The notes under the pieces: model-generated
Seen by the model: only the letters and a program-made list of their open reading frames with translations
Database searches by the model: none
Told to the model about the DNA's origin: nothing
Virus record (IMG/VR): IMGVR_UViG_3300045965_000170
Coordinates: 1-23,247 of that record
Reading direction: 5' to 3' (one strand)
Length of the DNA: 23,247 nt
From: a virus
Shown: positions 1,277-18,074 of the stretch, in pieces
How the letters are laid out: every line of letters starts with the position of its first letter
Position numbering within the stretch: position 1 is the stretch's first letter
Position numbers and translations under genes: made by a program

Positions 1277-1287
1277 GGCGGTGCGGC

Positions 1288-1542: not shown

Positions 1543-1552
1543 GAGGTGCGGT

Positions 1553-1696: not shown

Positions 1697-1707
1697 GGGG
1701 TAGCGCC

Positions 1708-2016
1708 ATGGCCTGGATACTCTGGATCTTCCTTGGTGCGCTGCTGGCGATCCTGTTTCCGGCGATCCACGCGGTCTTTGCCGCCCTCGGTCCGGTGTTC
1801 GTTGTCCTCGGCCTCCTGATCGGTACCGGCGTCTTCCTGTATGCCCTGTCCTGTGGTGTCGAGGGCACCCTGCGCGAAGCCGGGGCCATGTGGCATCCGC
1901 TGACCCGCTGGCTGCCAGAAGGGCTCCAGCCGTACAGCTTCTGGCTCCTTGTGGCCGGCGGCATGGGGGCCTTTGTCGCCTTCAGCGTGACGGTGCACCT
2001 GCTCATGGGGCGTTAA
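1708..2016 (+). CDS. Putative holin, three membrane spans
   Basis: 102 residues from ATG 1708, with GGGGG as ribosome site. Hydrophobic spans lie at about 2-24, 26-48 and 77-99, with a polar loop at about 49-76 and a very short C-terminus. Three spans in about 100 residues is the topology of class I holins, and this is the last and most holin-like gene of the membrane-protein cassette. Its TAA stop shares the tetranucleotide TTAA (2013-2016) with the stop of the convergent transglycosylase gene, leaving no room for a terminator. No separate endolysin gene is visible in the window. The holin call rests on topology and position only. Confidence 0.5.
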
Positions 2017-4097
2017 TCCGTGGTCCTGGCACGGCCACCCGGGGCCTGCTGGGACTCGCTCTGCCCTGCCCTCTGGCGTGGCGGCTCCTCCTGCATGGGC
2101 CCGTAGCCCATCTCCCGGCGTGCCGCATCCAGAATCAATGCCACATTGTTGGCCGAGAGTTTCCCCCCACTGCGCACAATGCTGTCACGAAACAGGTTCA
2201 TGGCGCGGGGCGACCCGAGCATAAGACTGAGTGAGGCCGGGATCGCTGCGGCCACGGCCGCCCCCGGTTGCCCGGTCAGGAGCATCCAGCCCGCCGTGCC
2301 GAGACTCCCCGTCTGTGTCACCAGCGAGGCCAGCGAGGGAATCTTGACGAAGGGATAGCGTTTCGCCAGGGCATCGAGTTCGCGCTTCAACGTCGCCTGT
2401 TCTGCCTCGCCCATCTGCCCCAGGACCCGCTGGGCGCGCTTCGTCGTGCCCTGGAGTTCTTTGTTGAGGGCTGCCAGGTTGAGATCGCTGAACTTCGTAT
2501 TGGGGTTGTAATTCGTGTGCTTCGTGACCATAGCTTGCAGGTCATCGGCATTACGGATACGGCGCCAGTCGGCCTGCGCCTGCTGGAGACGCGCAGGCGA
2601 GAAGCCTGCGGGCACCCGTCCCACGCTGAGGCCCTGGTCAATCGCATCGTCCACCGCGTTGCGCATATCCCAGAGCAGGTCGCGCGTCTCTGGCGTCGTG
2701 ACGACCTGGCGACGTTTCATGAGTTCGGAGCGCAGGCGTTGCAGTGCACCAATATCCCAGCCCTTGAGACTCGCCGCACCGGTCGTGCCCGAGCGTTCGA
2801 GGGCCTGCGCCAGTGGCGACGAGATGCGCCGCACTTCCTGAAGCGCCCGCTGTCTCTCCACCGTACTCAGGCCGTTCCACATGGTCTGCACGGGGGCAAT
2901 GTCCAACTTCACCCCACTCTGGCCAATCTCGTCAAAGACCGCCGATACCCGCGTCCGCTCTGGCGCCTGAAAGACGCGCTGCCCCAGCCCCTGGGCTTCC
3001 CTGGCGGCCTGGTCCCGCAGCACCATCTGCCCCCCACGACCACTGCGGAGGATCGTCCGTGCCGTGCCACGCACCGCTTCCTCACCAGCGGAAGGGACCA
3101 GATTCCAGGCCAGGGTTTCGAGCGCTTCCTGGGGTGTCGGGGCTTTCCCGGTCTCCCACCAGCGCCCGGCGGTTTCGCCCGCGCTCTGCGTGAGCGCTTC
3201 GCCGGCCACACGGGCGGCGATCCCCGCGGCCGGACGCATGGCCGTGCCCACGCCCGTCATGAGTGGAATCAGCGTCGAGGGCTTCGTGATGCCTTCCTCC
3301 AGTGGCGCTTCCACCTGACTTGGCAGCACCTGTGGCCGCTGACTGGGGGGGATCGGGTCGCCCTCATGCCACCCCCGCTGTCTGCCCATGGCCAGCAGCG
3401 CGGTGGGGTCGGTCACCGGCGGCGCCTGGACCGTCGGACCACCCCCCACCGCTAGCGCCGCCGGATCCTCCATCCCTTGCTGCTGGCGCATCCGGGCAAT
3501 CGTCTGCGCGGCTTCCTGCTCGGTGGCCACCGGAGCCCCCTGGCTGGCCGCTGGAGCCGTCTGGGATGTGGGGGTCGTCTGGGACACCGGGGAAGGGGTC
3601 GTCGTGGCGCCTGGAGTCTGCTGGGCGTCTCTGCGGGCGAGTTCCGCTTCAATCTCGTCGAGACGACTGCGCCCAGGGGCGGATGGCTGCGGCGTGGCCG
3701 CCTCGGCACGGGCAGGGGTGAGTGCGCCGAGGATGCGCGACACATAGCCCCGCGTCTCTTTGAACGGGGGCACGCCTTTGTAGGCATCGACGGCCCCCGG
3801 CCCGGCGTTGTACGCCGCCAGGGCCATGCCCTGGTTCCCCCCGTAGCGGTCGAGCTGCTGCTTGAGGTAGCGCACGCCGCCTTCGATGTTTTGCCCCACG
3901 TCCGCAGGATTGACGCCGAGTTGGCGTGCCGTGCCGGGCATGAGTTGCATGATGCCAGCAGCCCCTTTGGGCGAACGGGCAGTGGGATCGAAGTTCGACT
4001 CCTGGCGCGCGACGCCGAGCGCCAGCGCCGGATTCACCCCCTGCAACCGGGCTTCCACCTCGATGAGGCGTTGGATATCGTCACGGGAGAGTGGCAT
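2013..4097 (-). CDS. Virion lytic transglycosylase / DNA ejection protein
   Basis: 694 residues. The N-terminal 130 residues form a lysozyme-like SLT domain: A-R-Q-E-S-N-F-D-P with catalytic Glu at about 33, then [13 protein letters not shown], then [11 protein letters not shown] low-complexity Pro/Thr/Gln linker follows (about 135-215), then a long helical region, with a small-residue-rich hydrophobic patch near 600-630. In podoviruses, large internal proteins with an N-terminal transglycosylase are ejected with the DNA and open the cell wall locally. It is the last of three ejection-type genes and is followed by the tailspike, as gp16 is in P22. The ATG directly follows the TAG of the upstream gene (TAGATG), so translation is probably coupled. 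Confidence 0.85.
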
Positions 4098-5648
4098 CTA
4101 GCGCCCTCCCTTGCGCAGGCGGTCGCGCTCGGCGAGCAGTTCATCGCGGGACATCTCCGTGACGGGTTTCAGCGCCTGGCTGCTCTGGCCCCCACCGGGC
4201 GCGGCCTGGCCTCCGGTGCGTCCGGTCGCCCGGGCTTCTTCTTCGAGGTTGCGCGTAATGCGCTCCCGGGCCTGACGCTTTTGCTCAATCACCTCTTTGC
4301 TGTTGCCCGGTTGCGGGAAGTAGATCTGATCGGTCATGTCCCATTCCATCTGGGTGACATTGGCCCCAGACGTTTTGCGCAACCACGCCGCGGCAAATTC
4401 CCCGACCGCCTGCTTGTATTTTTGATAGTCCTCGCCCGTCAGATAATTGCTGATGCCGTAGGGCAGTTTCTGGTCAGCCAGCTTCTCCCAAAAGCCCGGC
4501 TGAAACCCCTTCTTTTCCATCTCGGCAGTAATGGCCTGGGAGCTTTTGGCAAGATCGTAATAGGTCCCGGCCTTTTGTTCGGCCTCGGTGGGCTTGCCGA
4601 GCAGCGGTCCCCCGCCGGGAGCCTGGAGATACTCGACGTCGCCACTTTTGCCAATACGCACCATGCCCTGCGGCGTCTCTTTAATCTGCCCGGCACCATG
4701 CATGGCGGACACCCGCTCCTTGGCCGACTCGGCCTGCTGGATGGCCCAGGCGCGTTCCTGTGGCGTGGCCGTCTCCCAGGTTTTGTTGAGGGTCCCTAAG
4801 TACTCCGTCACTGGCGCGCTAATCCCCTCGCGCTTCGCCTTGAGCATCGCCGCCTGCGCCTTCAGGTCTTCCTGCTCCAGCAGGATGCTGTCCTTCCGAC
4901 TGAGCGCCCGGTCCGCAATCGACTGCATCGCCTCGGCCGAGTACACCTGCGGCAGTTGCGCCGCGTATTGATGCAGGCCCTGGCTTTGGAGCTGGGTCCG
5001 CCAGGTGTCGAGGTCCGCCTGGGACTTGATGGTTGGCGCGGTCCGGCCCAGGTACTCCATGACCTTCTCACCTATGATGAGTCGGTTCTCCTGGCGCTTG
5101 AGCTGCGCGTCCTCCTGCCCCTGCATCTGGCGCATGAGGAGCAGGCCGGCCCGGGGATTCTGGCGCACGAGCGCTTCGATAGGGTTGCTCTGCGGGCCCC
5201 CGAGTCCCGCCAGGGTCGGCTGTGGGGGCGTGACTCTCGGCATGACCTGCGCCGCGACGTCTGGCGGCATCGGCCCCCCACTCGCCGGCGACACCCCGGC
5301 AAAGCGGCTCATGTCAGGGTAGGCGGGAATCGTCTGCGTCGCACCTGGACCGCCCGGCCCCACCGTCTGTTGCGTCATGGCCCCGGCCGCCGGCTGGCCA
5401 CTGAGCGACGCCAGGGGACTCTGGGGCATGCTGCCGCCGCCGCCCAGCCCCAGTAAGGCGGGGTTCTGTTGCACGGCCTGCAAGTACAGGGCTTCGGCTT
5501 CCTGGTTGCGCTGCGCTTCCTGCAAGGCCATCAGCGCGGTGCGGTTCTGCAGCATGCCCCCCGCCGCATTGATCGCCTGTGTGGTCGTGCGCGGGAGGTC
5601 AAAGGGCCGCATGTCCGGTAAGTAGAGTCCGCCAAGAACGGTACTCAT
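4098..5648 (-). CDS. Probable internal/ejection protein, helical
   Basis: 516 residues from ATG 5648 with an AGGAGG site. The N-terminus reads as a phage structural protein: a short beta start, then helices rich in Gln, Ala and Leu. Residues about 60-160 are Pro/Gly/Ser-rich low complexity. The rest is mostly helical with many charged residues, ending in a predicted helix rich in Arg, Glu and Leu. No catalytic motif is visible. Its place between the 921-residue glycine-rich protein and the transglycosylase corresponds to the gp7/gp20/gp16 ejection block of P22-like phages. A role in the internal core or in the channel formed during ejection is inferred from position and composition. Confidence 0.6.
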   Translation of the reverse strand: MSTVLGGLYLPDMRPFDLPRTTTQAINAAGGMLQNRTALMALQEAQRNQEAEALYLQAVQQNPALLGLGGGGSMPQSPLASLSGQPAAGAMTQQTVGPGGPGATQTIPAYPDMSRFAGVSPASGGPMPPDVAAQVMPRVTPPQPTLAGLGGPQSNPIEALVRQNPRAGLLLMRQMQGQEDAQLKRQENRLIIGEKVMEYLGRTAPTIKSQADLDTWRTQLQSQGLHQYAAQLPQVYSAEAMQSIADRALSRKDSILLEQEDLKAQAAMLKAKREGISAPVTEYLGTLNKTWETATPQERAWAIQQAESAKERVSAMHGAGQIKETPQGMVRIGKSGDVEYLQAPGGGPLLGKPTEAEQKAGTYYDLAKSSQAITAEMEKKGFQPGFWEKLADQKLPYGISNYLTGEDYQKYKQAVGEFAAAWLRKTSGANVTQMEWDMTDQIYFPQPGNSKEVIEQKRQARERITRNLEEEARATGRTGGQAAPGGGQSSQALKPVTEMSRDELLAERDRLRKGGR

Positions 5649-5659
5649 GCCTGGACCTC

Positions 5660-8425
5660 CTAAGCGTTGAGGCTGCCGAGCAAGCTGGTCAGCTGATTCT
5701 GAAATGCGACGTTGCCAAAGGCCCCTTGCGCCGCATTGCCGAGGTTGCCCAGCGTGTTGGTCCAGGCGTTCCCACTACTGAGCGCCCCCTGTCCTTGCGC
5801 CGTCCCCAATTGCCCGTACAGGTTCCCCATCTGCTGCCCGTAATTGGCCCCCAGCTGCCCGAGCTGCCCCAGGCTTGTCTGCCCCAGCCCGGCCAGATTA
5901 CTCCACTGATTGAACTGCGTGCCTTGCGCCAGCCGTTGCGCATTAAACAGTTCGGCGAGCCGCTGGTTCTGCGCTTCCCGCTCGGCCCAGTCACGCCCGT
6001 ACTGGAGCTGGTTCTGCCCCAGCAGCCGACTATAGAGGGCCTCGTCATAGGCCTGCCGCTCGCGCTGCCCCTGTTGCTGGGCGTTGAAGTCGGCCTGCCA
6101 GCCAAACTGCCCTTGCTGCGCCCGCATCTGGGCTTCCTGTGCGGCCTGGCTCCAGTTCTGGGCTTGCGATTGCTGCGCCAATTGCTCCCGGAAGGCCGCT
6201 TCGGCCTGTGCCTGCGACCAGCCCTGCTGACTGGCGATCTGGTTGACCTGCTCGCGGAGCTGCGCCTCACTCATGGCCTGGCCGTAACCCATCTGACTTG
6301 CCGTCTGCGCCCACTGCTCTCGCAGCTGTGCCTGTTGGCTGGCGCGTTGCCAGGCCGCGCCATACTCCTGACTCGCCAGGTCCTGCCCTTGCTCCTGGAG
6401 CGCACGCAACGCTGAGCCTGACAAGGCCCCACCCCGGGCCGCCTGCGAGGCCTCTAAGGCCCGCTGGGCCCGGTCCAGGCGAAACTGCACCCCCGGATCA
6501 TTGGCGAGCAGTGCCTGCCCACTGAGCGTCGGCACGGCCCCCGGCGTGTAGCGGTACTGGCTCGCGGCCGGGATGGCCCCTGGCGCGTAGCGGTAGTCCC
6601 CGGCACGCGGTCCCTGCCCTGGCGTGTAGCGGTACCCCGCCGCACTGGGCACGTCGGTGGGCGTATAGCCGCCGTAACTGCCCGGCGTCCACCCTGGGGT
6701 GGCACTCGGGAGGGCATAGCCTGCGCCACTGAGCGGCGCCACCTGGCCGAGCGTCGGTTGCGCCTGACCCGCCAGCGTCTGGAGTTGCCCCAGGGCACTG
6801 CGTCCGGCTTCGAGCCATGGGGCCTGGTTGGCCTGGGTAGCCAGCCACTGGGCCGTTTGCAGATCAATGCCCCGGTTGAGGGCCGCCGCCTGGAGGGCCG
6901 CCGCGTCACTGGCGGCACTGGCCCCCATGGCGCCGGCCCCGAGCGACGTCAGGCCGCTCACGGCAGGGCCGAGCCACGAGGCATTTTTGCCCAGAAAGCC
7001 GCCCACACTGCCGAGGGCGCCGAGAGCGGTGCCGAGCCAGCCGCCGCCGGTGCCGCCGCCGCCCCCAAAGCCGTACAGACTGGGATTGGCCGCCATCGCC
7101 GCCGCGACCTGATCTTGTAAGGACGACACGTCACCAGGGAAATCCCCCGTGCCGTAGCCACTCCAATCGCTCACACCACTATACCAGTCGCCGGCGCCGA
7201 TATCCGTACTGTAATCTCCCGGGAAATCCCCACCGCCCCAGTCGTTCCAATCCATACGCCCTCCTGTCGCCGCGTCCGTGAGTCCCTGCGTCGCCCCCTC
7301 CTGCACGCCCTGCGCCGCACTGAGCAGGCCCGCCACACCACTGCCCGCACTGCCAAGCTGTGACCCTAAGCCCAGATAGCGACTCACCTGTTGGAGGGGC
7401 TGTGTTCCAGTTGCCCTCCCAAGCGCCCCAGTAATGCGCCCAGCAGAGCCCGCTAAACGTGCCACATCACCCACACTGCGGATGCCGGTACTCGCCAGAT
7501 TCCCCAGCCCGGCCGCGCCACCCGCCAGGCCACCGAGGACCCCGAGACCCAGCCCGACTTTCTGGAGCCAGGGCTGGCCCGTGGCGGCGCCCAGCACGTT
7601 CGCGCCCATCCCGCCGTAAGAGCCGATGGCACCGATCGTCCCGAGCGTCGAGGTGGGAATCCCCAGGATCGAGGGCGCCGCCGCACTGGCTGCCGCAGGG
7701 GCTGCCGCGGCGCCACCGGCCGCCACTGGCGCAAAGGCCCCGAAAGCCGCCGCGCCGCCGGCCGCCGCGCCCAGGGTGCCCAGGGCCATAAAAAACTCGT
7801 TCGAGAGCGGGTTGAAAGCGTCCGAGGGCTGCGGTGTCGTGGCCACCCAGTTCTGGTACGCATCGGCCTGGCGCACGTTCTCGAACAGACTGCGCTCGGC
7901 ATCGGTGGCACTGCCGGCGCGGATTTTGTCGCGTAGGCCCAGCATAATGGCGCCCAGGTCGGGGGAGCTCTGCGTGAGCCGCCAGGCGGACTCCACCCAC
8001 TCGGGATCGCTCTTGTCCTCGGGAAATCCGACCCAATAGCCCCCGCGCGCCCCTGGGGTCAGGCGCGCGAGCTCCCGCGTCGGCACCGCCAGGGCCTGCG
8101 TGCGCATCTCCTCCCACTGCTCACGCTCGTAGTCCTTGAGCTGCCCGGCCTCGGCCTGCTCAGCAAAATGGAGGAGCTGCTGAATATAGCCCGGCGGGGC
8201 GTAGGGCATCTGCGGGATCGGGGCGCCCGGCATCCATTGAAAACTGCTGCTCGATCCCTCCTGGCTCGGGAATTGATAGGAAAGCGTATATTCCGGGACC
8301 TTGGAGATCCCTTCATCCCCCCACGTTACCTTGCTCCCGTCAGGGAGCGGTAACTCCCCGTAGAAGGGAATGTCTTCCTGTTGATCGTCCACAATCCCGC
8401 GGCCAGGAACAACGTACAGGGTCAT
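5660..8425 (-). CDS. Large Gly/Ala-rich DNA transfer-type protein
   Basis: 921 residues from ATG 8425 (AGGA eight bases upstream). Residues about 1-200 are globular. Two long Gly/Ala-rich hydrophobic stretches follow (about 205-320 and 450-515) and could enter or cross a membrane. Around 520-545 is N-Q-A-P-W-L-E-A-G-R-S-A-L-G-Q-L, a motif frequent in phage DNA-transfer/ejection proteins. Next come three spaced copies of Y-R-Y-(T/A)-P-G (about 595-635). The last 280 residues are Gln-rich helical sequence with S-Q-x-x-W-S-Q-A-type repeats. Likely an ejected core protein that helps DNA cross the envelope. Assignment is by composition, motif and gene order. Confidence 0.6.
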   Translation of the reverse strand: MTLYVVPGRGIVDDQQEDIPFYGELPLPDGSKVTWGDEGISKVPEYTLSYQFPSQEGSSSSFQWMPGAPIPQMPYAPPGYIQQLLHFAEQAEAGQLKDYEREQWEEMRTQALAVPTRELARLTPGARGGYWVGFPEDKSDPEWVESAWRLTQSSPDLGAIMLGLRDKIRAGSATDAERSLFENVRQADAYQNWVATTPQPSDAFNPLSNEFFMALGTLGAAAGGAAAFGAFAPVAAGGAAAAPAAASAAAPSILGIPTSTLGTIGAIGSYGGMGANVLGAATGQPWLQKVGLGLGVLGGLAGGAAGLGNLASTGIRSVGDVARLAGSAGRITGALGRATGTQPLQQVSRYLGLGSQLGSAGSGVAGLLSAAQGVQEGATQGLTDAATGGRMDWNDWGGGDFPGDYSTDIGAGDWYSGVSDWSGYGTGDFPGDVSSLQDQVAAAMAANPSLYGFGGGGGTGGGWLGTALGALGSVGGFLGKNASWLGPAVSGLTSLGAGAMGASAASDAAALQAAALNRGIDLQTAQWLATQANQAPWLEAGRSALGQLQTLAGQAQPTLGQVAPLSGAGYALPSATPGWTPGSYGGYTPTDVPSAAGYRYTPGQGPRAGDYRYAPGAIPAASQYRYTPGAVPTLSGQALLANDPGVQFRLDRAQRALEASQAARGGALSGSALRALQEQGQDLASQEYGAAWQRASQQAQLREQWAQTASQMGYGQAMSEAQLREQVNQIASQQGWSQAQAEAAFREQLAQQSQAQNWSQAAQEAQMRAQQGQFGWQADFNAQQQGQRERQAYDEALYSRLLGQNQLQYGRDWAEREAQNQRLAELFNAQRLAQGTQFNQWSNLAGLGQTSLGQLGQLGANYGQQMGNLYGQLGTAQGQGALSSGNAWTNTLGNLGNAAQGAFGNVAFQNQLTSLLGSLNA

Positions 8426-8447
8426 AGGAAAGTCCTATGTTTCTAGC

Positions 8448-9008
8448 CTACCCCGCCCAGTACGACCCACTGAGCGCAATCTGCGTCGTGGCCGTCAGGG
8501 CCGTCACCGGCAGGCGGTCCCAGCCCGTCGTACGCCCTTGCTGATACAGCCGCACGCGCGGTTCGCCAGCCACCATGGCGCCCATCAGGCTCTCGAACTG
8601 GCCGCCCAGCGTGACGTTGCCAAAGGCCAGCGACACCGGAATGAGCAAGGCGGGTGGGCCACTCGCCGCCGCCGGCAGCCCTGCCACGTCCACAAAGCCG
8701 GCCATGATGGGATCGAGCGCGCTGAGGGCGAGCGTCGCCGCAATCGTATAATTGTTCCCCGTCTTGATGGCCTGGCCCCACTGCACGCTATAGGTGTGAC
8801 CACTCGTGCCACTGCTGTCCACCAGCGTCGGCGTCCAGGTGAGGAGCACCGGCGTGATGGCCTCCAGCGTGGCCTCAATGGCGCCCAGGCGTTGCTGCGT
8901 CGTCAGCGACAAACGCTCGAACCAGCGTACCCACGTCGGCGTGAGCACCAGGGGCTCCCGAAACAGCACGGGCTCACGGGCCGGCACAGGATCTAAACGT
9001 TCGGCCAC
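8448..9008 (-). CDS. Hypothetical virion-associated protein, beta-rich C-terminus
   Basis: 186 residues starting at GTG 9008, with AGGAG eight bases upstream; no ATG in this frame has a better site. The first 50 residues include W-V-R-W-F-E-R-L-S and look helical. The rest is rich in Val, Thr, Gly and Ser with alternating hydrophobic residues, suggesting a beta-sandwich or fibre-like fold with the motif Y-S-V-Q-W-G. It sits between the FN3 gene and the ejection genes, near the position of the P22 tail needle gene, but has no recognisable needle heptads. Probably a minor tail or decoration protein; function unknown. Confidence 0.55.
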   Translation of the reverse strand: MAERLDPVPAREPVLFREPLVLTPTWVRWFERLSLTTQQRLGAIEATLEAITPVLLTWTPTLVDSSGTSGHTYSVQWGQAIKTGNNYTIAATLALSALDPIMAGFVDVAGLPAAASGPPALLIPVSLAFGNVTLGGQFESLMGAMVAGEPRVRLYQQGRTTGWDRLPVTALTATTQIALSGSYWAG

Positions 9009-9020
9009 AGCTAGGGCTCC

Positions 9021-9387
9021 TCAAGGTACGACTGTACCGCGCAGTCCTGTCGGCGCGTTGGGCGCTTGTGGTAGCGGCACTTGAAATTGAACGGTGTTGC
9101 TAGGACCGGATTCCTCCCCGTCTGCAGCCACCGCTTTGACGATGTAGCAGTAGTTGTGCCCAGCCAGCAACGGGGCCGGCGCCGAGCCCGTATCCGTATA
9201 CGTCTGCTGGCTCCTGGGCGTCGTCGCCAGGAACGCATACACCCCGAGACAATCGTTATCGCGATACACCGCGAAGTGGTCCGCCGGGTCCAGGGGATTG
9301 TCAAAGATAATCCCAGATGAGGTTCACCCCAACCCCCAGGGCAGGCATGGCCCAGAGCAGCACAAGGGCGGTCAGTACGGCGCGCAT
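9021..9387 (-). CDS. Secreted-type FN3 protein, probably made by +1 programmed frameshift
   Basis: The gene starts at ATG 9387 behind GGAGG. The zero frame encodes 28 residues: a signal peptide-like segment (M-R-A-V, hydrophobic core, A-L-G) and the start of a beta strand (V-N-L-I-W-D-Y-L), then TGA at 9303-9301. In the +1 frame the next 93 residues (9302-9024) complete a fibronectin type III domain (D-H-F-A-V-Y-R-D, Y-C-Y-I-V-K-A-V) and a proline-rich tail. A shift at CTT TGA C gives a 121-residue protein with an unbroken FN3 A-B region. TAT CTT TGA C is identical to the prfB frameshift site. The alternative is a simple frameshift mutation or sequencing error. FN3/Ig-like domains are known to be joined to phage proteins by frameshifting; a signal peptide on one is unusual. 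Confidence 0.6.
9300..9310 (-). other. RF2-like +1 frameshift site (CTT TGA C)
   Basis: On the minus strand the zero frame reads GAT TAT CTT TGA C, with the stop at 9303-9301. Slipping by one base at CTT TGA continues with GAC and opens the FN3 frame. The ten bases TATCTTTGAC match the E. coli prfB shift site. The internal Shine-Dalgarno that prfB has three bases before CTT is weak here (TGGGAT); a GGGGTGA lies further upstream. Confidence 0.55.
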
Positions 9388-9388
9388 G

Positions 9389-10861
9389 TTAACTTACCTC
9401 CAGGCGAGCCCCTAATATGGCCGTGAACACCGGGTCAGTCACGACCACTTTGAACGCCCGCTGACTCTTCGCTCTCCCCAGCCGACGCCACCTGACCAGC
9501 CTCGTGCGTTCGCCAATGCGCCCGGCGCTACGCCACAGGGGGTGACTCCACGAGTGGCCCCCGTCATCGGACCAACTCAACATGACTTGCGGGTCGGCCC
9601 CTGGCGGCTGCGCACCCCCGTCGGGCGGGTCGAAGCCGGCCTGCTCGTGCGTGCCAGGCAGCGCCAGCCCATCCAGGCCCACGCCCGTTTCGAGCAGCAA
9701 CTCGAACAGGTGATACACCACGGGCTGCTGGTCGTTGCGGATGTGCGGCGAGATGCGCTCGCGGTAGAGCGGATCGGTGCCATGCGTGTACCAATCCGGG
9801 CGCCAGCGATACAGGTGCCCGGTGGTGCGATCACCCCAGAGATGGTCACCAAACGCGAGGCAATGCGTGCCAGCGCGCCAGGCCGTGAGCGTACCCTCGG
9901 CGGTGAGGTCCGCCAGTTCGGTCCAGCCCTGCGTCGCCACGTCATAGGCCCAGGTGGTGTCGTGGCCCGGCACGTGCAGGAAGTACCACGAGTGGCCACC
10001 ATGCCGGGCGGTGTAGGCTTCCGTGCCAGAGAGATCCGTCACATGCGAGAGCGACGATTCAACGGCATGGGTGGAGATGCGGACGGGGGCGAAACCTTCC
10101 AGGCGCCAGACCGGGCCTTCGCCCCTGGGGCTTCCTCCTAGGAAGTACACAGTATTTTGCATAGCGACGCAGGCCCAGGGCGCCGCGATCCCCTGCTCAA
10201 TAAACGTACTGCTGGCACGCATGTACGGGTTCAGACTGTCCCCGGTCGGATGCCACACCTCAATACTTTGCGTGCCGAATAAGTACAGCTCTCTATGGTC
10301 TATAAGCAGCGTCAGGAGCAGGTCGGCACGCGCTTCCGCCTCGTAGAAGTTGAGGGCGGGCCAGGTCGCCGGGGCAAACGGGTCGCTGTACCAGAAGCGC
10401 CGCGTGCCAGGCTCGTTGGTGAGGATGCGGCCATCGAGGTACTGCACCCGCCCAAAGGTCTGCGGGCCTGTGAGCGGGATGGTCGCCAGCGTGTTGGTGG
10501 CAAACGGCATGGTATACCCGACGCCCTGCGCGCTCACCACCAGCGTCTGGCCGTCATCGGTCATACTGACCGGCGCGAGGCCGGTGGCGAGTGTGCCACG
10601 CACGAGATGCGTACCGCCGGCAAAGCACTCGTAGAGGGTGGTACTGGTCGCGCTAAAAACCCTGCCATTTGTACATTCATATAATCCGAGAATAGGTGCA
10701 GATTCAAGTAAATCGACTTGCTCTAAACCAGGGAAACCGTACAACGTGTATTGCCCACGTTGATTTGGGGACTCTTCTAAATACAAATTTAATGTTCTTT
10801 CAGAACTAACAAAAGGGCTTCTTGCTGGTGATGACGGACCTACAAAGCCTTTAAAATCCAT
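9389..10861 (-). CDS. P22 gp10-like tail accessory / DNA stabilization protein
   Basis: 490 residues when started at ATG 10861 (M-D-F-K-G), which has AGGA just upstream; in-frame alternatives at 10876 (ATG) and 10888 (TTG) have poorer sites. The N-terminus has the pattern of gp10-type proteins: polar start, S-S-E-R-T-L-N-L-Y-L-E-E-S-P, then G-F-P-G-L. The remainder is beta-rich with repeated W and G motifs such as H-G-G-H-S-W-Y-F, fitting a propeller-like tail hub. P22 gp10 (about 470 residues) plugs the portal after packaging, and this gene has the right length and place after the gp4-like gene. The first 180 bases (10681-10860) are about 40% GC by hand count, against about 67% at 10501-10560. 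Confidence 0.75.
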   Translation of the reverse strand: MDFKGFVGPSSPARSPFVSSERTLNLYLEESPNQRGQYTLYGFPGLEQVDLLESAPILGLYECTNGRVFSATSTTLYECFAGGTHLVRGTLATGLAPVSMTDDGQTLVVSAQGVGYTMPFATNTLATIPLTGPQTFGRVQYLDGRILTNEPGTRRFWYSDPFAPATWPALNFYEAEARADLLLTLLIDHRELYLFGTQSIEVWHPTGDSLNPYMRASSTFIEQGIAAPWACVAMQNTVYFLGGSPRGEGPVWRLEGFAPVRISTHAVESSLSHVTDLSGTEAYTARHGGHSWYFLHVPGHDTTWAYDVATQGWTELADLTAEGTLTAWRAGTHCLAFGDHLWGDRTTGHLYRWRPDWYTHGTDPLYRERISPHIRNDQQPVVYHLFELLLETGVGLDGLALPGTHEQAGFDPPDGGAQPPGADPQVMLSWSDDGGHSWSHPLWRSAGRIGERTRLVRWRRLGRAKSQRAFKVVVTDPVFTAILGARLEVS

Positions 10862-10883
10862 GGCATTCCTAGCCATACTAGGG

Positions 10884-10900
10884 TACAATAAGAGTATACT
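10884..10900 (+). promoter_or_regulatory. Promoter of HNH gene 2 (TACAAT and TATACT boxes)
   Basis: TACAAT (10884-10889) is followed after five bases by TATACT (10895-10900), the arrangement seen before HNH gene 1. TATACT ends seven bases before the leader stem. No convincing -35 box. GTATAC is itself a palindrome, and the site lies just upstream of the divergent gp10-like gene. Confidence 0.45.
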
Positions 10901-10907
10901 TGCTCAC

Positions 10908-10993
10908 TGATGGGGTAGCGCCTGATCAGCGCTCGTCAAGTCATTGACCTTCCTCAGTGAGCCCCATCATCCAACCTGGAAGGAGGTTGCCAC
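10908..10993 (+). ncRNA. Structured leader RNA, copy 3
   Basis: Outer stem 10908-10915 pairs with 10962-10969 (8 bp). Hairpin 1 pairs AGCGC (10917-10921) with GCGCU (10929-10933) around loop CUGAUCA, the same loop as copy 1 on an unrelated stem. The linker is CGUCAAG (10934-10940). Hairpin 2 pairs 10941-10947 with 10954-10960 (7 bp, one G-U) around loop CCUUCC (10948-10953). The loop is fully complementary to GGAAGG (10978-10983), part of the ribosome site, ten bases before the ATG. GGAGGUUG before the start is shared with copy 2. Confidence 0.75.
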
Positions 10994-11701
10994 ATGCCGT
11001 TCAAAGATCCCGAAAAATATCGTGCCATGGCTGGTATTTACTGTAGACGTTGGCTCGAAAAATCCCCCAAAAACCGTGAGACGTACAATGCCGCAGCGCG
11101 TGCGTCGTACCATCGACGGAAAGAACGACTCAACTCGGAACGTCGGGCAAAGCATGCAGCAAATCGTGACGAGTTGAATGCGATACGGCGAGCAAAGCGC
11201 GCTCTGAAGACACAAGATGCGCGGGAAAAGCGACTGCAAGAAGCTCCGCTGAAGAAAGCGCAAGCACAACAAGCACGTATTCTGTGGCTCAGCCAATGGC
11301 ATCGTACTTATCGGGCTGCTAATCCTCAGCAATTCCGTGCCTATGGACACGCGCGACGTGCAAGAGAAAATGGACATCCATATACATTGACACCAGAGCA
11401 AGAATCGTTTTGCCGCGCGCACTTTCACTACACCTGTGCTGTCTGCGGCCATGAAGAAGGCTTTCAGTGGCGCATTGTGTTGGATCACTGGATACCTCTC
11501 AAATCCCCTGACTGTCCTGGCACGGTTGCCACCAACATGATTCCTCTCTGTCATGGCGTCGGCGGCTGTAATAACTCGAAAAAGGACAAAGACCCTGAAA
11601 CCTGGCTGATTGCTCGCGTCGGGAAGCGCAAAGCCGCGACAATCTTGAAGCGTATCCGCGCCTATTTCGCTCTTGTGGCCCCAAAGGAGCAAGACGCATG
11701 A
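10994..11701 (+). CDS. HNH homing endonuclease 2 (basic N-terminal repeats)
   Basis: 235 residues. The N-terminal 120 residues are very rich in Arg, Lys and Ala with repeated N-R-E/N-R-D units, probably helical and DNA-binding. The HNH nuclease lies at about 148-200: C-x-x-C (148-151), L-D-H-W with Asp164-His165 as the catalytic pair, then N-M-I-P-L-C and C-N-N-S-K-K, giving the CxxC zinc-stabilised form. It resembles the protein at 14312 in both halves. It lies antisense between the gp4-like and gp10-like genes, with its own promoter and structured leader, and overlaps the next gene by ATGA. Likely a free-standing homing endonuclease whose site would be the intergenic junction or a nearby virion gene in cassette-free relatives. 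Confidence 0.8.
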   Translation: MPFKDPEKYRAMAGIYCRRWLEKSPKNRETYNAAARASYHRRKERLNSERRAKHAANRDELNAIRRAKRALKTQDAREKRLQEAPLKKAQAQQARILWLSQWHRTYRAANPQQFRAYGHARRARENGHPYTLTPEQESFCRAHFHYTCAVCGHEEGFQWRIVLDHWIPLKSPDCPGTVATNMIPLCHGVGGCNNSKKDKDPETWLIARVGKRKAATILKRIRAYFALVAPKEQDA

Positions 11702-11970
11702 CCCCGGAGCGCAAAGCCGACGTGCTCTTCTGGTGCCAGGTCGCCCTCTATCTCACGATTATGGGCGCGATTATCACCACCATGATCCTCTTTGCCTTCT
11801 GGCTCAATACCCTGCGCCTCGACCTGGAGGAAGCCCGCGCCAGAGATCGCGCCATGCTCCAGCAACACCAGACCGTGCTCGCCGATCACGACCGCGCCCG
11901 CGAGCAACACGACCGCGACCACCAGGCGTCCCACGCGGCCTTCATGGCGCTGCTCCAGGCGTACCGTTAA
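11698..11970 (+). CDS. Small membrane protein with coiled-coil tail
   Basis: 90 residues from ATG 11698, overlapping the HNH gene 2 stop (ATGA), with AAGGAG eight bases upstream. One transmembrane span at about 12-36 is followed by a strongly charged helix (about 38-75, many Arg, Asp, His, Gln) suited to a coiled coil, ending A-F-M-A-L-L-Q-A-Y-R. One N-terminal anchor with a long charged helix is like Rz-type i-spanins, but there is no partner lipoprotein gene and the helix is short. The overall plan also resembles the small proteins at 1136-1696. It shares the TTAA at 11967-11970 with the stop of the convergent adaptor gene. Function unknown; a lysis or membrane accessory role is a guess. 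Confidence 0.65.
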   Translation: MTPERKADVLFWCQVALYLTIMGAIITTMILFAFWLNTLRLDLEEARARDRAMLQQHQTVLADHDRAREQHDRDHQASHAAFMALLQAYR

Positions 11971-12683
11971 CCAATCCCCGCCCGGAAGCGCGCCATCCGG
12001 TCCCCCACCAGACCGCTCCCCGGCGTTGGACTCATCCGCCCTACGACCGTGTTGATCACCGCCAGGTTGCGCTTCGATTCCTCCGCAATCTTCAGCGTAA
12101 GCGGCGAGGGCTGCACGCCATAGGAGGGCGAACATTCGAGCGCCAGGGCTGCCCGGAGCGCCCGCGTATAGCCTGGCGGAAACTGCACGTCGTCATCGAG
12201 ACTGCTGAAGGCCTCTAGGGGCACCCAGGGATAGACGGTAATCGTCCATGGTCCTGCCGCATTGACTGGCCAAATATACAGCTCCCCTAGGGGCACCTGC
12301 GGCGCGTAGTACAGCGCCAGGGGCCACGTGCTGGTTTCCGTCTTCCAGGCGAGCTGGGCGTACTGCTCCTGGCGCGCCAGCACCTCCACGGGGTAGTCAT
12401 AGCCCACCGCATCACGGTACTCCGCATGGTCCGCCAGGCGGATCGGGCGCGCACTGGGGATGGCACCGCCCACCCCCCAGGTCTGCATCGGGACACCTGC
12501 GGGCCACGACAGCTCCGTGGGCTTGAGATAGTAAATCCACAACGACTCGGTACTGAACGAGTCGAGCAGGGCATTGAGCAGGTCCAGGCCATGCTGGGCC
12601 ATATCAGCCTGAATCGGCTCTTCCGGGCTACTGACGCCCAGGTCCATCAGGGCGCCTTTAATCAGGGTCCTGGCGGTGGTCAC
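11967..12683 (-). CDS. P22 gp4-like head-tail adaptor / tail accessory factor
   Basis: 238 residues from GTG 12683, with GGAG upstream and a GTGA overlap with the previous gene. The N-terminal helices match the gp4 pattern: T-A-R-x-L-I-K-G-A-L-M-D-L-G-V, then G-L-D-L-L-N-A-L-L-D-S. A segment with W-x-Y-Y-L and beta strands follows, then Y-x-W-V-P-L-E and a helical end with Y-T-R-A-L-R-A-A-L-A-L-E. This family attaches below the portal and joins head to tail in P22-like phages. Position after the coat gene and before the gp10-like gene agrees. P22 gp4 has 166 residues, so this one is longer. Confidence 0.75.
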   Translation of the reverse strand: MTTARTLIKGALMDLGVSSPEEPIQADMAQHGLDLLNALLDSFSTESLWIYYLKPTELSWPAGVPMQTWGVGGAIPSARPIRLADHAEYRDAVGYDYPVEVLARQEQYAQLAWKTETSTWPLALYYAPQVPLGELYIWPVNAAGPWTITVYPWVPLEAFSSLDDDVQFPPGYTRALRAALALECSPSYGVQPSPLTLKIAEESKRNLAVINTVVGRMSPTPGSGLVGDRMARFRAGIG

Positions 12684-12868
12684 CGGCTGCTCCGGCGCGG
12701 GCTGGCCGCCTCACTCTCAGCAGCCTTCGCCGCCGCGTCCGCCGCCTCAGCCGGGCTCTCAAACCATTCGCCAGCCGGGAGCGCACGCAATTCCTCCGGC
12801 GTCGTCACGACCTTCGATGTGCCACTGACGTGATAGCGCCAGGAGGGCAGCACAGGGGCTTCGGGCAT
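12680..12868 (-). CDS. Small hypothetical protein between coat and adaptor genes
   Basis: 62 residues from ATG 12868, 20 bases after the coat stop; an in-frame start at 12916 would overlap the coat gene. No strong ribosome site is visible (a weak GAGATGG lies close upstream). The middle, V-V-T-T-P-E-E-L-R-A-L-P-A-G-E-W-F, resembles short proteins found after phage coat genes. The C-terminus is an Ala/Glu-rich helix. Overlap with the adaptor start suggests coupled translation. Function unknown. Confidence 0.55.
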   Translation of the reverse strand: MPEAPVLPSWRYHVSGTSKVVTTPEELRALPAGEWFESPAEAADAAAKAAESEAASPRRSSR

Positions 12869-12888
12869 AATCCATCTCGCTTTCCATA

Positions 12889-14097
12889 TTAGACCAATGG
12901 ACTCCAGACACGGCATACGGCCTCAGGTTGCACATATTTGAACCCCCAGAGCACATCACAACGGCTCAAATGGCCATCAGTACGGATGTCGGAGTCACGC
13001 CACACGCGCAACGCCAGACGCACCTGTTCATCACTGGCCGTGGCATTCTCGCCAGACCACGGGGTAAACAGCTTGACGTTGCCCAGCGTCACGCCAATGG
13101 GGTGATAAAACAGGTTCTGGGCATAGGCGGTGTCTGCGGTACCCAGAAACGTGATGACGCCGTTATCCACGGGGAGTGCCGTGACGGTGGCCCGTGGGTC
13201 GGACGGCAGAATCATCGGCGGGTAGACCGGCACACTGGCCGTGCCCGTGCCACTCGCGTCCACGTCGGCCTGCACGCTGAACATGCGCAACTTCCCGGTC
13301 GATTCCAGCGACTGCGGCTTGATCCCGAACACGTTGGCCACCTGAAACACGTCGCCCTTTTTGAGAACGCCCGTGGCCGAGGCGGTAAAGCCCTTCATGT
13401 TAATCGTGGACCCCGTCGAGCCGGCGGCAATGAGCGGCGTCCCGGCGCGCGAGCCCGTGGTATGCGTGGCCACGTTTTGATCAATCGACCACTTCGCGCC
13501 TAAGGTCTTGCCCATCAGGCCATCGGTGTACTGCCGGCCAATCTCGGTGGACTGCTGAAACAGGCCCTTGTTCTCGTCAACCACCTCGATGCCTTCGTCG
13601 GGATGGAGCACCACGGCGCGCTGATCGTCCCTGGGCACCCCTTCCATATCCAGGAGGGCCGAGGCCAGACCAAACGCCCGCCAGTGCTTGCCGGTTTCCA
13701 CCAGCACCGAGTTATACGCCTCCCAGTACATAGACAGGCCATCCGTGTCAATTTCGTTGGCCAGGCGGGCCGCCTGGGGTTTGGCGATGCGATTGTTCCA
13801 GTCATCGAACTGCAATGTAAGTTCCACTGACGTGAAATCCACATCCGCATGTTTCTGTTTGTCAATGACCAGACGGACCACCTCTTCCACGTAGTCTTGA
13901 CCGACATAAGCAGGGCCATCATGGACCGAATAGCGCGGGGTTTTCCTTATGTCGAGAAAATCGCCGATCTTGTGACCTTGCTTCCCAAAATCATCCTCCC
14001 AGCGGCGATCCGCACCAGCGGCGAAAACGAGGTTATTGGTTAAATTAGCGAGAAGCATTTGACTTACCATCTGTATGGTACGAAAAGTATTGGCCAT
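12889..14097 (-). CDS. Major capsid (coat) protein, P22 gp5-like
   Basis: 402 residues from ATG 14097, with GGAAAG eight bases upstream. The N-terminal region (M-A-N-T-F ... L-A-N-L-T-N-N-L-V-F) and the following segment (G-D-F-L-D-I-R-K-T-P-R-Y) match the start of P22-type coat proteins, where an N-terminal arm precedes the HK97 E-loop. A long polar helix region at about 115-200 and a beta-rich insertion at about 215-330 fit an HK97 fold with an inserted domain. P22 gp5 has 430 residues. The gene follows scaffold and precedes the adaptor as expected, although an antisense HNH gene separates it from scaffold. Confidence 0.85.
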   Translation of the reverse strand: MANTFRTIQMVSQMLLANLTNNLVFAAGADRRWEDDFGKQGHKIGDFLDIRKTPRYSVHDGPAYVGQDYVEEVVRLVIDKQKHADVDFTSVELTLQFDDWNNRIAKPQAARLANEIDTDGLSMYWEAYNSVLVETGKHWRAFGLASALLDMEGVPRDDQRAVVLHPDEGIEVVDENKGLFQQSTEIGRQYTDGLMGKTLGAKWSIDQNVATHTTGSRAGTPLIAAGSTGSTINMKGFTASATGVLKKGDVFQVANVFGIKPQSLESTGKLRMFSVQADVDASGTGTASVPVYPPMILPSDPRATVTALPVDNGVITFLGTADTAYAQNLFYHPIGVTLGNVKLFTPWSGENATASDEQVRLALRVWRDSDIRTDGHLSRCDVLWGFKYVQPEAVCRVWSPLV

Positions 14098-14158
14098 ATT
14101 AGCTCTTTCCTATTTACAACGGAATGTCGGCGTAAAGGGGGAGCTAAACGCCATACTT

Positions 14159-14178
14159 TATTGGCAAACGTGCCAATA
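14159..14178. promoter_or_regulatory. Inverted repeat, possible operator
   Basis: TATTGGCA-AACG-TGCCAATA: perfect 8 bp arms with a 4-base centre, lying between the coat gene start (minus) and the promoter of HNH gene 3 (plus). It has no T-tract, so a terminator is less likely than a protein-binding site or a stabilising hairpin. Confidence 0.4.
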
Positions 14179-14185
14179 GATGGGA

Positions 14186-14210
14186 TACAATTACCTATGT
14201 CTGGTATACT
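14186..14210 (+). promoter_or_regulatory. Promoter of HNH gene 3
   Basis: TACAAT (14186-14191) and, further down, TGG-TATACT (14202-14210), which is an extended -10 box. TATACT ends six bases before the leader stem at 14217, as in the other three units. The -35 region is weak. Confidence 0.45.
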
Positions 14211-14216
14211 CCAGAT

Positions 14217-14311
14217 GCGACACGGCTAGGGAACAGCTGCCCGAAAACCTGTCTCAGCAGGCTGCCGCGTCGTTTTCCACTGAGACCTCTGACTGAGGAG
14301 AGGACAGAGAG
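14217..14311 (+). ncRNA. Structured leader RNA, copy 4 (more diverged)
   Basis: Outer stem 14217-14226 pairs with 14264-14273 (one A-C mismatch and one G-U). Hairpin 1 is GGG (14229-14231) with CCC (14240-14242) and an 8-nt loop ending in the palindrome CAGCUG. The linker is GAAAA. Hairpin 2 is CCUG/CAGG with loop UCUCAG (14252-14257). The loop can pair fully with CUGAGA (14280-14285), or with one G-U with CUGAGG (14293-14298), which overlaps the ribosome site. The second choice gives start spacing closest to copies 1-3. Confidence 0.6.
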
Positions 14312-14986
14312 ATGTCTCGCCAAATTGATCCAGACGTGCAGAAAGCACGCTGGCGTCTTGCCAGTGCGCGCTATCGTGCCAAACATCGTCCAAAAGTTCT
14401 TGCCAAACAGCGTGACTATAATCAGCGCTACTACGCGAAAAATCGCGAGAAATTGATCGCAGCCAGCGCCGCGTACTATGCGGCAAATCGCGAGCAGATT
14501 CTTGCTGACAACAAAACTCCAGAAGCGCGGAGGTATCAAGCGCTCTGGAAAAGGGCCTTCCGTGCGAGCAATCCAGTCGCGTACAATGCCTATACGCAGA
14601 AGCGTCGTGATGCCAATCGCGAGACCATTCGCGAGCGTGACCGTGCCTACTATGCCATAGACTATGCCGCGCATCCTGAACGCCACCGGGCGAAACACCA
14701 TAGGCGACGTGCGCGGATAGCCGGATCGCAACGTAATGACTTGACGCCCGAACAAGCTGCACTCATTCTTGCTCTCGCCGATGGCGTCTGCGCCTATTGT
14801 CCGTACTACAATCCTACGTGTCAGGCCTGCAAACGGCATAGTCACGAACTCACCTATGATCACATCACGCCCGTCAATGACCAGGGCGACAGCACACTCT
14901 GGAACTTTGTCGCCTGCTGTAAGTCTTGCAACTCCAAGAAAGGTATTGGACCGCCTCCAGGACCAGTCCAACCGTTGTTGCTCTAG
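14312..14986 (+). CDS. HNH homing endonuclease 3 (basic N-terminal repeats)
   Basis: 224 residues. Residues 1-135 are Arg/Lys/Tyr/Ala-rich with repeated A-x-N-R-E units spaced roughly 16 residues apart (around 42, 58 and 101), suggesting tandem DNA-contacting helices. The HNH core lies at about 160-210: C-A-Y-C (160-163), a C-x-x-C insertion at 170-173, Y-D-H-I-T-P with Asp183-His184, W-N-F-V, and C-C-K-S-C-N-S-K-K. The organisation is that of the HNH protein at 10994. It is antisense to and between coat and scaffold genes, and its TAG shares CTAG (14983-14986) with the scaffold stop. A GGAG/GAGG ribosome site precedes the ATG. Confidence 0.8.
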   Translation: MSRQIDPDVQKARWRLASARYRAKHRPKVLAKQRDYNQRYYAKNREKLIAASAAYYAANREQILADNKTPEARRYQALWKRAFRASNPVAYNAYTQKRRDANRETIRERDRAYYAIDYAAHPERHRAKHHRRRARIAGSQRNDLTPEQAALILALADGVCAYCPYYNPTCQACKRHSHELTYDHITPVNDQGDSTLWNFVACCKSCNSKKGIGPPPGPVQPLLL

Positions 14987-15978
14987 CGCCCGAAGTCCCT
15001 AGGGCTAGGCCTCCATCCACTATTCCATTTCGCTCTAAACTCCGCCTGACTCCAGTCCGCCGGGGATTCCGGCGGGGCCGCCCCGCGCCCAGTCAGGGGG
15101 GCGAGCGGGGGGGCTAAGGGTGGGGGACTGGCCGCCGGGGGAGCAGCGGGCGGGGGGGCCTGTGGCGGGGTGCCGTTCGCCTGGAGAGAGACAGGCTGCA
15201 GGCGCCCGAGTTCGATCAGCATGAGTGGCGGGGGGAGCTGGTTCAAGCGTGCCACCACGTCAGGCTGGCTGGCCAGGCCATAGGCGATGGCAGGACCATC
15301 CGGATGGAACATGAGGGCCTGCTGGAGGGGCGGCGAGACCTTCCCCACCAGCCCGGCACGCACCACGTCGTCGTAGTCCGCGTGCTGCGCCTTGAAAGCC
15401 GCCTCGCGTTCCTGAAGCTGGCGCTGGAGGTCCTGCATCTGCTGGCGCTGCTGCATCTCCTGTGTCTGCGCCTGCGTCACTTGCTGGGCTTCGTAGCGGG
15501 CCGTGGCGCGCACGTAGTCGTCGTGACTCTGAAACGCCTCGGCCTGCGGGGGGCCCTGGGGCTGCTCGGGGAGCGCGGGGGCCCCACCCTGGAGCAGCTG
15601 CGTCATGAGCTGCATCTGGGCACGCAGTTCGGCAATGGTCTGCTGATTGGTGGCGCGCTCGGCTTCCAGGGCCCGCTCGGCCGCACGGTGGCGAGCGGTC
15701 AGGCGACCAATGCGTTTATGGAGATAGCCGGCCGTAATCGGCGCATCATCGGGAGAGTCGGGCTCGTCCGCATCCCCTGGGGACTCTCCCTCCCCAGGGG
15801 CGGGTGGTTCGGGTGGTGAGTCCGAGGGCGGTGCGTCGGAGGCCTCCGGCGACACCTGTGCACCAGGCGCATCTGTTTGCGCACCGTCAGCTGCCGGCAC
15901 GTCGGGCGATACGTCCCCGGGATAGGGGGTCTCGGTAATCTGGCCGCTGGCGTCGCGGCTGGTGATCGTAATGGCCAC
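14983..15978 (-). CDS. Scaffolding protein
   Basis: 331 residues from GTG 15978, with AGGAG eight bases upstream, three bases after the portal stop. Residues about 20-80 are acidic and Pro/Ser/Asp-rich (disordered). Residues about 85-215 are helical and rich in Gln, Glu, Ala and Arg, with long coiled-coil potential. About 265-305 is a proline-rich linker. The C-terminus (R-A-K-W-N-S-G-W-R-P-S-P-R-D-F-G-R) is basic, as expected for a coat-binding scaffold tail; in P22 gp8 the basic C-terminal helix-turn-helix binds coat. Position between portal and coat supports the call. There is no protease motif. Confidence 0.75.
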   Translation of the reverse strand: MAITITSRDASGQITETPYPGDVSPDVPAADGAQTDAPGAQVSPEASDAPPSDSPPEPPAPGEGESPGDADEPDSPDDAPITAGYLHKRIGRLTARHRAAERALEAERATNQQTIAELRAQMQLMTQLLQGGAPALPEQPQGPPQAEAFQSHDDYVRATARYEAQQVTQAQTQEMQQRQQMQDLQRQLQEREAAFKAQHADYDDVVRAGLVGKVSPPLQQALMFHPDGPAIAYGLASQPDVVARLNQLPPPLMLIELGRLQPVSLQANGTPPQAPPPAAPPAASPPPLAPPLAPLTGRGAAPPESPADWSQAEFRAKWNSGWRPSPRDFGR

Positions 15979-15980
15979 CG

Positions 15981-18074
15981 TTATTGCTCCTCTACGGTGC
16001 CGTTCGTGGGTTGCTGCATGTCATGGGCGAGTTTTGCTGCTTCGACAGAATATTTGAGTTCCAGTTCACGGCGCTTGAGGGCATTATCCTCCACAGCCAC
16101 CTCATGTTCCCACTTCGCCTTATAGGTCTCAATCGCCTCGGTCTGGCGCTTATCCTCCAGGCGCGTCTTGAGCCGGGCATTTTCCTGCTCGGTCAAGGCC
16201 AGCTGTTGCGTCGCCACCTGTGTCTGCTGCTGGAGCTTCTGCATCTCCTGCGTCAGCGCCTCCAGCTGCTGCTGGGCCTGTCTGGCGGCGTTCTGCGCCT
16301 GCACCAGCTGCGTTTCCGGACTCCCGCCTTGCGTCGCCTGGAGCGCTTCCGGTGGGACTAACGTGCGCAAGCGTTGCGAGAGTTCCTCGGCGCCCGGGAT
16401 ATCGAGCGAGCCCGTATAGATGTCGAGGACATACTTCGCCACGTCAGGCACCGCGCCCAGGAGAATGCCAAGCCGCTCATTCATCATCTCGCGGCTGGTG
16501 TCATAACTGGGGCCACTGGACACCACGCATTCGTACACGCCAGCCCCCAGCGCATGGTCCATCCCCTGCCCATCCGGCCTGGGCTGGTTCACCTGGGCCA
16601 TCGAAACCGTCCCGTCCTTGCCGACCTGGCGCAGCTGCGTCGGGCCCGGGTAGAGGGTTGGCAGGATAGCGAGGATCTGCCTGCCACACGCCTCGATCGA
16701 CCACGCCAGGTTGGCCGTGAAGCCGGCGGTCGTCTGCTCGCCCTCGCGCTTCCTGGCGTCAATCGCCGCGCCACTCTGTTCATTGGAGGGCGCGCCAACG
16801 CTGGCTTCGTACTGGCCTACGGTGGCCTGAATGTCCTGGGCGGCGAGCATCCTGGCCTGGGAGATGGCCTGGACGGCGGGCTCGGCCACCTCACGGCGGG
16901 GTGGGGGGAGGAGCTGGCCGCCAGCCACCACGGCCTTGACGGGCAGGTAGGGCAGGTGCGCGTCATTGGCCTGCCTCCACAGGTCCTCGTAGCCGGCGAT
17001 GGTCTCGGCAAACAGGATGAAGGGCGCCTTGGGCGTCAGGGCAATGGCACTCATTTCGGCGCTGGCGTAGGCATCGTAAGCGAACTGGCTGGAGGCCGAG
17101 GCCTGCACAATGCCGGTGCGGCGGGCCCGGCCGTCGAGGTCGAGGCGCCGGCCTTCGACACGGATCAGCGGGATGTGACTTCCTGGCCAGCGGGTCTTCT
17201 CCAACACCGCGTAGCCGCACATGGTCACGCCATAGACGGTGCAGATGCGCGTCTGGCGCGTCGGCCACTCTGGCGGGAGATCGCCGAGTCCCTCGGTGGG
17301 CAGCACCGTGCCATCGGGCATCTGGACGATCTCTTCGTCCTGCCAGACCTTGTAGTAGTAGAGAGCCACCTGGACATCCGTCGGCGTGACCCACTTCTGG
17401 TCAGGATAGGACGCCCAGTGACGCACCTCGGCCGGGCTCTTGCGGTATTTGGCGCAGAAGGCGCGGTGCGACATGGTGTCGATGATGAAGGCCCAGTCGA
17501 GGTCCAGGGCTGCTGGGTGGGTGGAATAGGGGTCACAGAACACACTGAAGCGGTCGTACACCGGCACAATTTTGAGGCACTGCTGGAAGGACGTCGGGGA
17601 TTCGTAGTCCAGCGCGAGGCGAAAGAAGCCCTCGCCAGTGCTGATGGCCTGGGATAAGGCCGAGGTGTACGAAATTTCTGCTTGTGAATCGGCCTCTATG
17701 TCCCTGACTTTCCCTTCCAAGATCGTCGCAAGCTTCTGCGTCGCCCCCCCCGACTTGGGACGAATACGGATGGAAAAGGGCGCACGCCTGTACGAGTTGA
17801 TGAGTTGGGAGATATATTGATGCGTCCGATCAATAGTGAGCGTCGGCTGCTCCTGGCCTTGTTTGGCGCGTTGCTCCCGTAAATAGGAAGGCCAATGCTC
17901 ACCGCTTTGAAACACTAAGGCATCGCGTTGTTGAGCCCTTTCAGCCTGCTCGGCTTGTTCTGATTCGGTGAACCGGGCACGGGCTTCGCTGAGCACGTCG
18001 TCATCGGTGCGCGGGTCCAGCGCAGTCTTGTCCTCGCGGGTCAGCGGGCGCAGGGTCTGGACGTGTTCAGCCAC
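15981..18074 (-). CDS. Portal protein, P22 gp1-like
   Basis: 697 residues from GTG 18074, with AGGAG upstream (P22 gp1 has 725). N-terminal helices lead to Y-L-R-E-Q-R-A-K-Q-G-Q-E-Q-P-T-L-T-I-D-R, then Y-R-R-A-P-F-S-I-R-I-R-P, then S-T-G-E-G-F-F-R-L and V-Y-D-R-F-S-V-F-C-D-P, all typical of the P22 portal family. Residues about 580-690 are a Gln/Glu-rich coiled coil, matching the C-terminal barrel helix of P22-type portals. Forms the dodecameric DNA channel at one capsid vertex and contacts terminase, scaffold and the gp4-like adaptor. Confidence 0.9.
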   Translation of the reverse strand: MAEHVQTLRPLTREDKTALDPRTDDDVLSEARARFTESEQAEQAERAQQRDALVFQSGEHWPSYLREQRAKQGQEQPTLTIDRTHQYISQLINSYRRAPFSIRIRPKSGGATQKLATILEGKVRDIEADSQAEISYTSALSQAISTGEGFFRLALDYESPTSFQQCLKIVPVYDRFSVFCDPYSTHPAALDLDWAFIIDTMSHRAFCAKYRKSPAEVRHWASYPDQKWVTPTDVQVALYYYKVWQDEEIVQMPDGTVLPTEGLGDLPPEWPTRQTRICTVYGVTMCGYAVLEKTRWPGSHIPLIRVEGRRLDLDGRARRTGIVQASASSQFAYDAYASAEMSAIALTPKAPFILFAETIAGYEDLWRQANDAHLPYLPVKAVVAGGQLLPPPRREVAEPAVQAISQARMLAAQDIQATVGQYEASVGAPSNEQSGAAIDARKREGEQTTAGFTANLAWSIEACGRQILAILPTLYPGPTQLRQVGKDGTVSMAQVNQPRPDGQGMDHALGAGVYECVVSSGPSYDTSREMMNERLGILLGAVPDVAKYVLDIYTGSLDIPGAEELSQRLRTLVPPEALQATQGGSPETQLVQAQNAARQAQQQLEALTQEMQKLQQQTQVATQQLALTEQENARLKTRLEDKRQTEAIETYKAKWEHEVAVEDNALKRRELELKYSVEAAKLAHDMQQPTNGTVEEQ

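Follow-up and report, generated by a model that had tools for sequence, protein, structure and literature searches.

Few recoding signals have been studied as thoroughly as the +1 site CUU_UGA. In the prfB shift, the spacer codon, the slippery codon, the stop and the C in the fourth position have each been described as contributing (PMC13245932; PMC12421855), and the UAU spacer and the fourth C have been described as promoting shifting (PMC13245932). The position of the Shine-Dalgarno-like stimulator for +1 shifting is 3 nt upstream (PMC5009743). This element is nearly invariant among prfB sites (PMC12421855), and no competing Shine-Dalgarno-like stretches are found further upstream of them (PMC5009743). 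Among the +1 sites in RECODE, those having CUU before the stop are all prfB (PMC10885494).

Here, we explored a phage gene that is split between two reading frames at UAU_CUU_UGA_C. Both frames, the site and a domain running across the two frames are directly observed. The reading that we tentatively prefer, at somewhat less than even confidence, is an accessory gene for a small exported FN3-like protein, the full-length form of which would be made through a weak, RF2-sensitive and functional +1 slip at this site. The likelihoods given here and below are our judgements and not computed posteriors.

Organization of the Split Gene

The split gene (367 bp) is located on the minus strand between the Hc3 head-closure gene and a downstream neighbour gene. 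The coordinates of the features in the window, that is, the whole 23,247-nt stretch of DNA that was analysed, are listed in Table 1.

Table 1. Features of the split gene, its putative shift site, its neighbours and the endonuclease-like genes of the window.
Feature	Coordinates	Strand	Description
Zero-frame ORF	9387..9301	-	28 codons, MRAVL...NLIWDYL, then TGA
Contents of zero-frame ORF	9301..9387	-	Hydrophobic, signal-peptide-like N-terminus, then first FN3-like strand NLIWDYL
+1-frame continuation	9302..9021	-	93 codons, rest of FN3-like domain
Shine-Dalgarno GGAGG of split gene	9401..9397	-	Pairing -10.7 kcal/mol; within end of Hc3 gene
Putative shift site UAU_CUU_UGA_C	9300..9309	-	Spacer codon, slippery CUU, UGA stop, fourth-position C
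UGGGAU, in place of prfB AGGGGG	9310..9315	-	Weak Shine-Dalgarno-like pairing only
Hc3 head closure / P22 gp10-like packaged-DNA stabilisation protein	9389..10888	-	phrog_578, E=9.6e-97; upstream neighbour
Downstream neighbour	8448..9008	-	No function assigned; homologue directly after Hc3 in nearest relative
HNH/endonuclease VII-like gene	370..972	+	
HNH/endonuclease VII-like gene	10994..11701	+	
HNH/endonuclease VII-like gene	14312..14986	+	
HNH/endonuclease VII-like gene	18517..19197	-	
HNH/endonuclease VII-like gene	21987..22625	+	

The ATG of the gene is at 9387, 1 base past the Hc3 stop. Its zero frame reads MRAVLTALVLLWAMPALGVGVNLIWDYL and ends with TGA at 9303..9301. The +1 frame continues with GAC (9302..9300) and then DNPLDPADHFAVYRD...VVP up to a TGA at 9023..9021; it is also written DNPLDPADHFAVYRDNDCLGVYAF...QAPNAPTGLRGTVVP and is open from just upstream of the junction. 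The joined product of both frames has 121 aa. When the minus strand was re-read, the coordinates and sequence claims of the initial annotation, namely the zero-frame TGA, the +1 continuation and the CUUUGAC junction, proved exact. The zero frame, the stop, the +1 frame and the site are all in the right phase, and the long form ends only 12 nt upstream of the GTG of the next gene. Both observations argue for a weak +1 shift.

The codon-usage score of the +1 part was 0.03, the best of the three frames (-0.43 and -0.51 in the other two), compared with 0.15-0.36 for the other genes of the phage. There were no further lesions in its frame. That the +1 part scores best and carries no other lesion would fit a part that is still translated through a weak +1 shift. 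The single lesion in an otherwise intact frame is also a point in favour of a recent one-base insertion, which is considered below.

It may also be proposed that no frameshift takes place. The 28-aa ORF would then encode a leader peptide or be a short frame unrelated to the rest, and the FN3-like part would be made from its own internal start. A GTG at 9269 in the +1 frame could serve as such a start. However, starting there would drop the first part of the domain, and no obvious Shine-Dalgarno was seen by eye before this GTG, whereas the start of the zero-frame part has a strong one. In addition, the NLIWD strand, which this same domain would be expected to have, lies in the zero-frame part. 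We therefore regard this explanation as very improbable.

Comparison of the Shift Site with prfB

The spacer (E-site) codon, which is UAU or UCU in prfB-type sites, is TAT at 9309..9307. It is followed, again as in prfB-type sites, by the slippery CTT at 9306..9304, by TGA directly after it and in phase, and by C at 9300. The in-phase stop of prfB-type sites may be UGA or UAA. Thus, UAU_CUU_UGA_C covers 10 of the 16 site bases and all 10 are identical to prfB. Over the whole site, UGGGAU UAU CUU UGA C and the AGGGGG UAU CUU UGA C of E. coli prfB are equal in 13 of 16 bases. The identity of these 10 bases to the prfB core suggests a weak +1 shift, and from the work on prfB such a core would be expected to allow some slippage in any translated sequence.

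A strong Shine-Dalgarno-like stimulator 3 nt upstream of CUU was also looked for as a feature of prfB-type sites, and only UGGGAU was found there. Its pairing is -4.0 kcal/mol, compared with -10.7 for the E. coli prfB core, and 33% of the 4,829 in-frame positions in the phage pair as strongly or more strongly. A stronger competing stretch, GGGUGA (-6.3 kcal/mol), lies 17 nt upstream. The missing prfB-type element and the upstream competitor both count against a weak +1 shift, as does the fact that the CUU-stop sites in RECODE belong to prfB; the Shine-Dalgarno element not being enriched at the site is also in line with a one-base insertion. Because this feature was tested and is not present, the phage site falls outside the prfB-type class as defined, though it may work like a prfB-type site. 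The equation of the junction with the prfB frameshift site that had been made earlier is therefore borne out for the slippery codon, the stop, the fourth base and the spacer, which are in phase, but not for the Shine-Dalgarno stimulator, which is absent or weak. If the site does shift, its efficiency would probably be weak because there is no strong Shine-Dalgarno stimulator.

Chance of the Site Arising

CTTTGAC has five copies in the window when both strands are counted. Therefore, the heptamer by itself means little, and its position is the notable part. We simulated every single-base insertion into the ten large genes (53,055 in total). The first zero-frame stop was CTT_TGA_C in 1.2% of these events, and CTT_TGA was located at most 6 nt from the insertion in 0.08%. 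A TAT or TCT spacer codon together with the site occurred in 0 of the 53,055. Since the simulated insertions go back to few underlying sites and are therefore not independent, and since the finding was picked from many possible curiosities, the simulation is a guide and not a p-value. In addition, CTT is a rare Leu codon in this phage (18 of 451 Leu codons).

These results bear on the possibility that a dispensable accessory gene recently gained one base by insertion. Its frame would originally have been uninterrupted, the extra base would have created a prfB-looking stop by accident, and the gene would now be a pseudogene or be expressed only through the accidental leakiness of the site. We consider this to be almost as likely as the weak +1 shift. 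The figure of 1.2% for CTT_TGA_C as the first stop somewhere is compatible with it. However, the full core UAU_CUU_UGA_C was never produced by the simulation, whose events, as noted, are not independent and come from few underlying sites, and the rarity of CTT also stands against it. That random insertions almost never yield the site at the junction supports a weak +1 shift, and a chance origin of the site, although conceivable, is uncomfortable. The initial annotation had held that the exact placement argues against chance. The direction of this argument is right, but placement alone does not tell a selected site apart from a lesion that arose by luck.

The FN3-Like Product

The product is a 121-aa FN3-like protein and not release factor 2, so the gene itself is not prfB. 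The joined protein matched the FN3 region of PHROG_31 weakly at residues 18-103 (18.2 bits, E = 8e-4). The +1 part alone scored 11.3 bits, and the zero-frame part added 6.9 bits, which shows that the zero-frame strand NLIWD contributes to the match. The best PDB match of the joined protein was 3mpc, an FN3-like protein (E = 0.065, also weak). This alignment crosses the junction and pairs NLIWD with NLTWN. The matches across the junction are consistent with the earlier proposal of an FN3 domain divided over both frames and would favour a weak +1 shift. By this evidence, a homologous product appears to be continuous across the zero and +1 frames, as at prfB-type sites.

No curated FN3 model in Pfam (fn3) or NCBIfam matched the joined protein, and its single-sequence AlphaFold model was poor (pLDDT 45). 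Because of these two results, FN3-like seems a fair but not a strong label for the product, and the Pfam and AlphaFold outcomes count against a weak +1 shift. The label was chosen because FN3-like motifs can be seen in the sequence. The N-terminus of the zero-frame part resembles a signal peptide as judged from the sequence, and on this prediction the product is probably secreted or exported.

Relatives and Homologue Searches

Another IMG/VR record, 3300046482_000331, is 25,903 bp long and shares 17,355 bp with the window at 0 mismatches and 0 gaps, and its ends are different. This second contig was most likely assembled separately, though the population behind it is probably the same. We asked with this record whether the interruption could be a sequencing or assembly error in a genome whose true frame is uninterrupted, as might be suspected of a metagenomic contig. 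An identical second contig with different ends makes a simple assembly error unlikely, although both contigs could still share one population or study. A run of TTT is also too short for a typical homopolymer error. This explanation is thus improbable.

Protein homologues of the split gene were searched for in IMG/VR, GTDB genomes, phages and plasmids, and apart from the near-identical contig all matches were weak and generic. A search for the DNA pattern of the site with or without the extra base returned only the same phage plus one chance match. Among 42 IMG/VR contigs with TGGGAYTAYCTTTGAC, the same arrangement in an FN3-like gene was seen only in the near-identical contig; in those with a long +1 frame, the motif was mostly inside one long uninterrupted frame. 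Relatives were gathered via Hc3, the downstream neighbour and the major capsid protein, and none of them had an FN3-like gene beside Hc3.

In the nearest relative, 3300043331_002188, Hc3 is 87% identical, the split gene is absent and the downstream neighbour comes directly after Hc3. The gap from Hc3 to the next gene is about 360 bp shorter there, which is near the length of the split gene. Since the nearest relative does without it, the split gene appears to be a dispensable accessory cassette, and a simple lesion is therefore plausible. This lends weight to the one-base insertion. The failure to find homologues in the databases searched and the absence of the gene from the nearest relative would both speak against a weak +1 shift.

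The window (23 kb) also contains five free-standing HNH or endonuclease VII-like genes, four of which are not on the strand of the structural genes but on the other one. Because the nearest relative has a much shorter gap at at least two of the five places, these genes appear to be homing endonuclease genes that were inserted.

Other Features of the Window

The ten large genes at 2013..20539 on the minus strand never end in TGA (six TAA and four TAG), despite the 62% GC of the window. TGA stops do occur in smaller genes and in the part of the second contig that extends past the window. At 1070..2016 on the plus strand, a series of short and closely spaced ORFs of membrane-spanning character is possibly a lysis cassette. 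The gene at 2013..4097 on the minus strand encodes a protein of 694 aa. An SLT transglycosylase domain (PF01464, E = 3.3e-25) is located at its N-terminus, and in this it resembles internal virion or ejection proteins.

Two further candidates were rejected. Transcriptional slippage was rejected because the run has only three Ts. Stop-codon reassignment was rejected because TGA ends several other plausible phage genes and a phage tRNA search found none.

Proposed Mechanism and Comparison with Known Systems

In the weak +1 shift that we prefer, CUU would be in the P site while UGA awaits RF2. The peptidyl-tRNA-Leu would then re-pair with UUU, and translation would resume at GAC. The majority of ribosomes would terminate and leave a 28-aa dead-end peptide. 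A minority would make the 121-aa protein, and their share would rise with RF2 scarcity. Under this mechanism the arrangement may have been selected rather than tolerated. The interpretation in the initial annotation, that the phage could tie production of the protein to the host RF2 level, is only partly supported. In this stronger form of the proposal, synthesis of an exported FN3-like protein would depend on host RF2 through an RF2-type shifty stop, the first such stop to be used by a gene other than prfB; we consider this rather unlikely.

An RF2-type site outside prfB would be new. If it is functional in a phage gene, this would show that the signal can be co-opted to gauge the termination capacity of the host, and the locus would give a short, directly testable construct for shifting by the core without the Shine-Dalgarno element. 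If the gene is only broken, it is a useful example of how readily a lesion looks programmed.

The locus resembles prfB in its UAU spacer, CUU slippery codon, in-phase UGA and following C, and in having a short N-terminal zero-frame ORF ahead of a longer +1 ORF. It differs in its weakly pairing UGGGAU where prfB has AGGGGG, and no orthologue in which the site might be conserved was found in the databases searched. The phage product, unlike that of prfB, has no part in its own regulation, and any RF2 sensing would therefore form no feedback loop.

Phage Ig-like extensions are often added through frameshifting (PMC5009743). The +1 shifts of phage PSA and of the A118 and A500 tail likewise occur in phage genes, either at a stop or beside it. 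However, the PSA shift takes place at a proline codon and extends an abundant structural protein at its C-terminus, whereas the small stand-alone protein here would exist only through the shift. The locus is also similar to corrective or 'savior' indels, in which a one-base change leaves a product that can still be made at a low level by shifting (PMC5009743). Most corrective indel cases are mitochondrial, and the cited example relies on a homopolymer run (PMC5009743), whereas here the site would be a shifty UGA stop.
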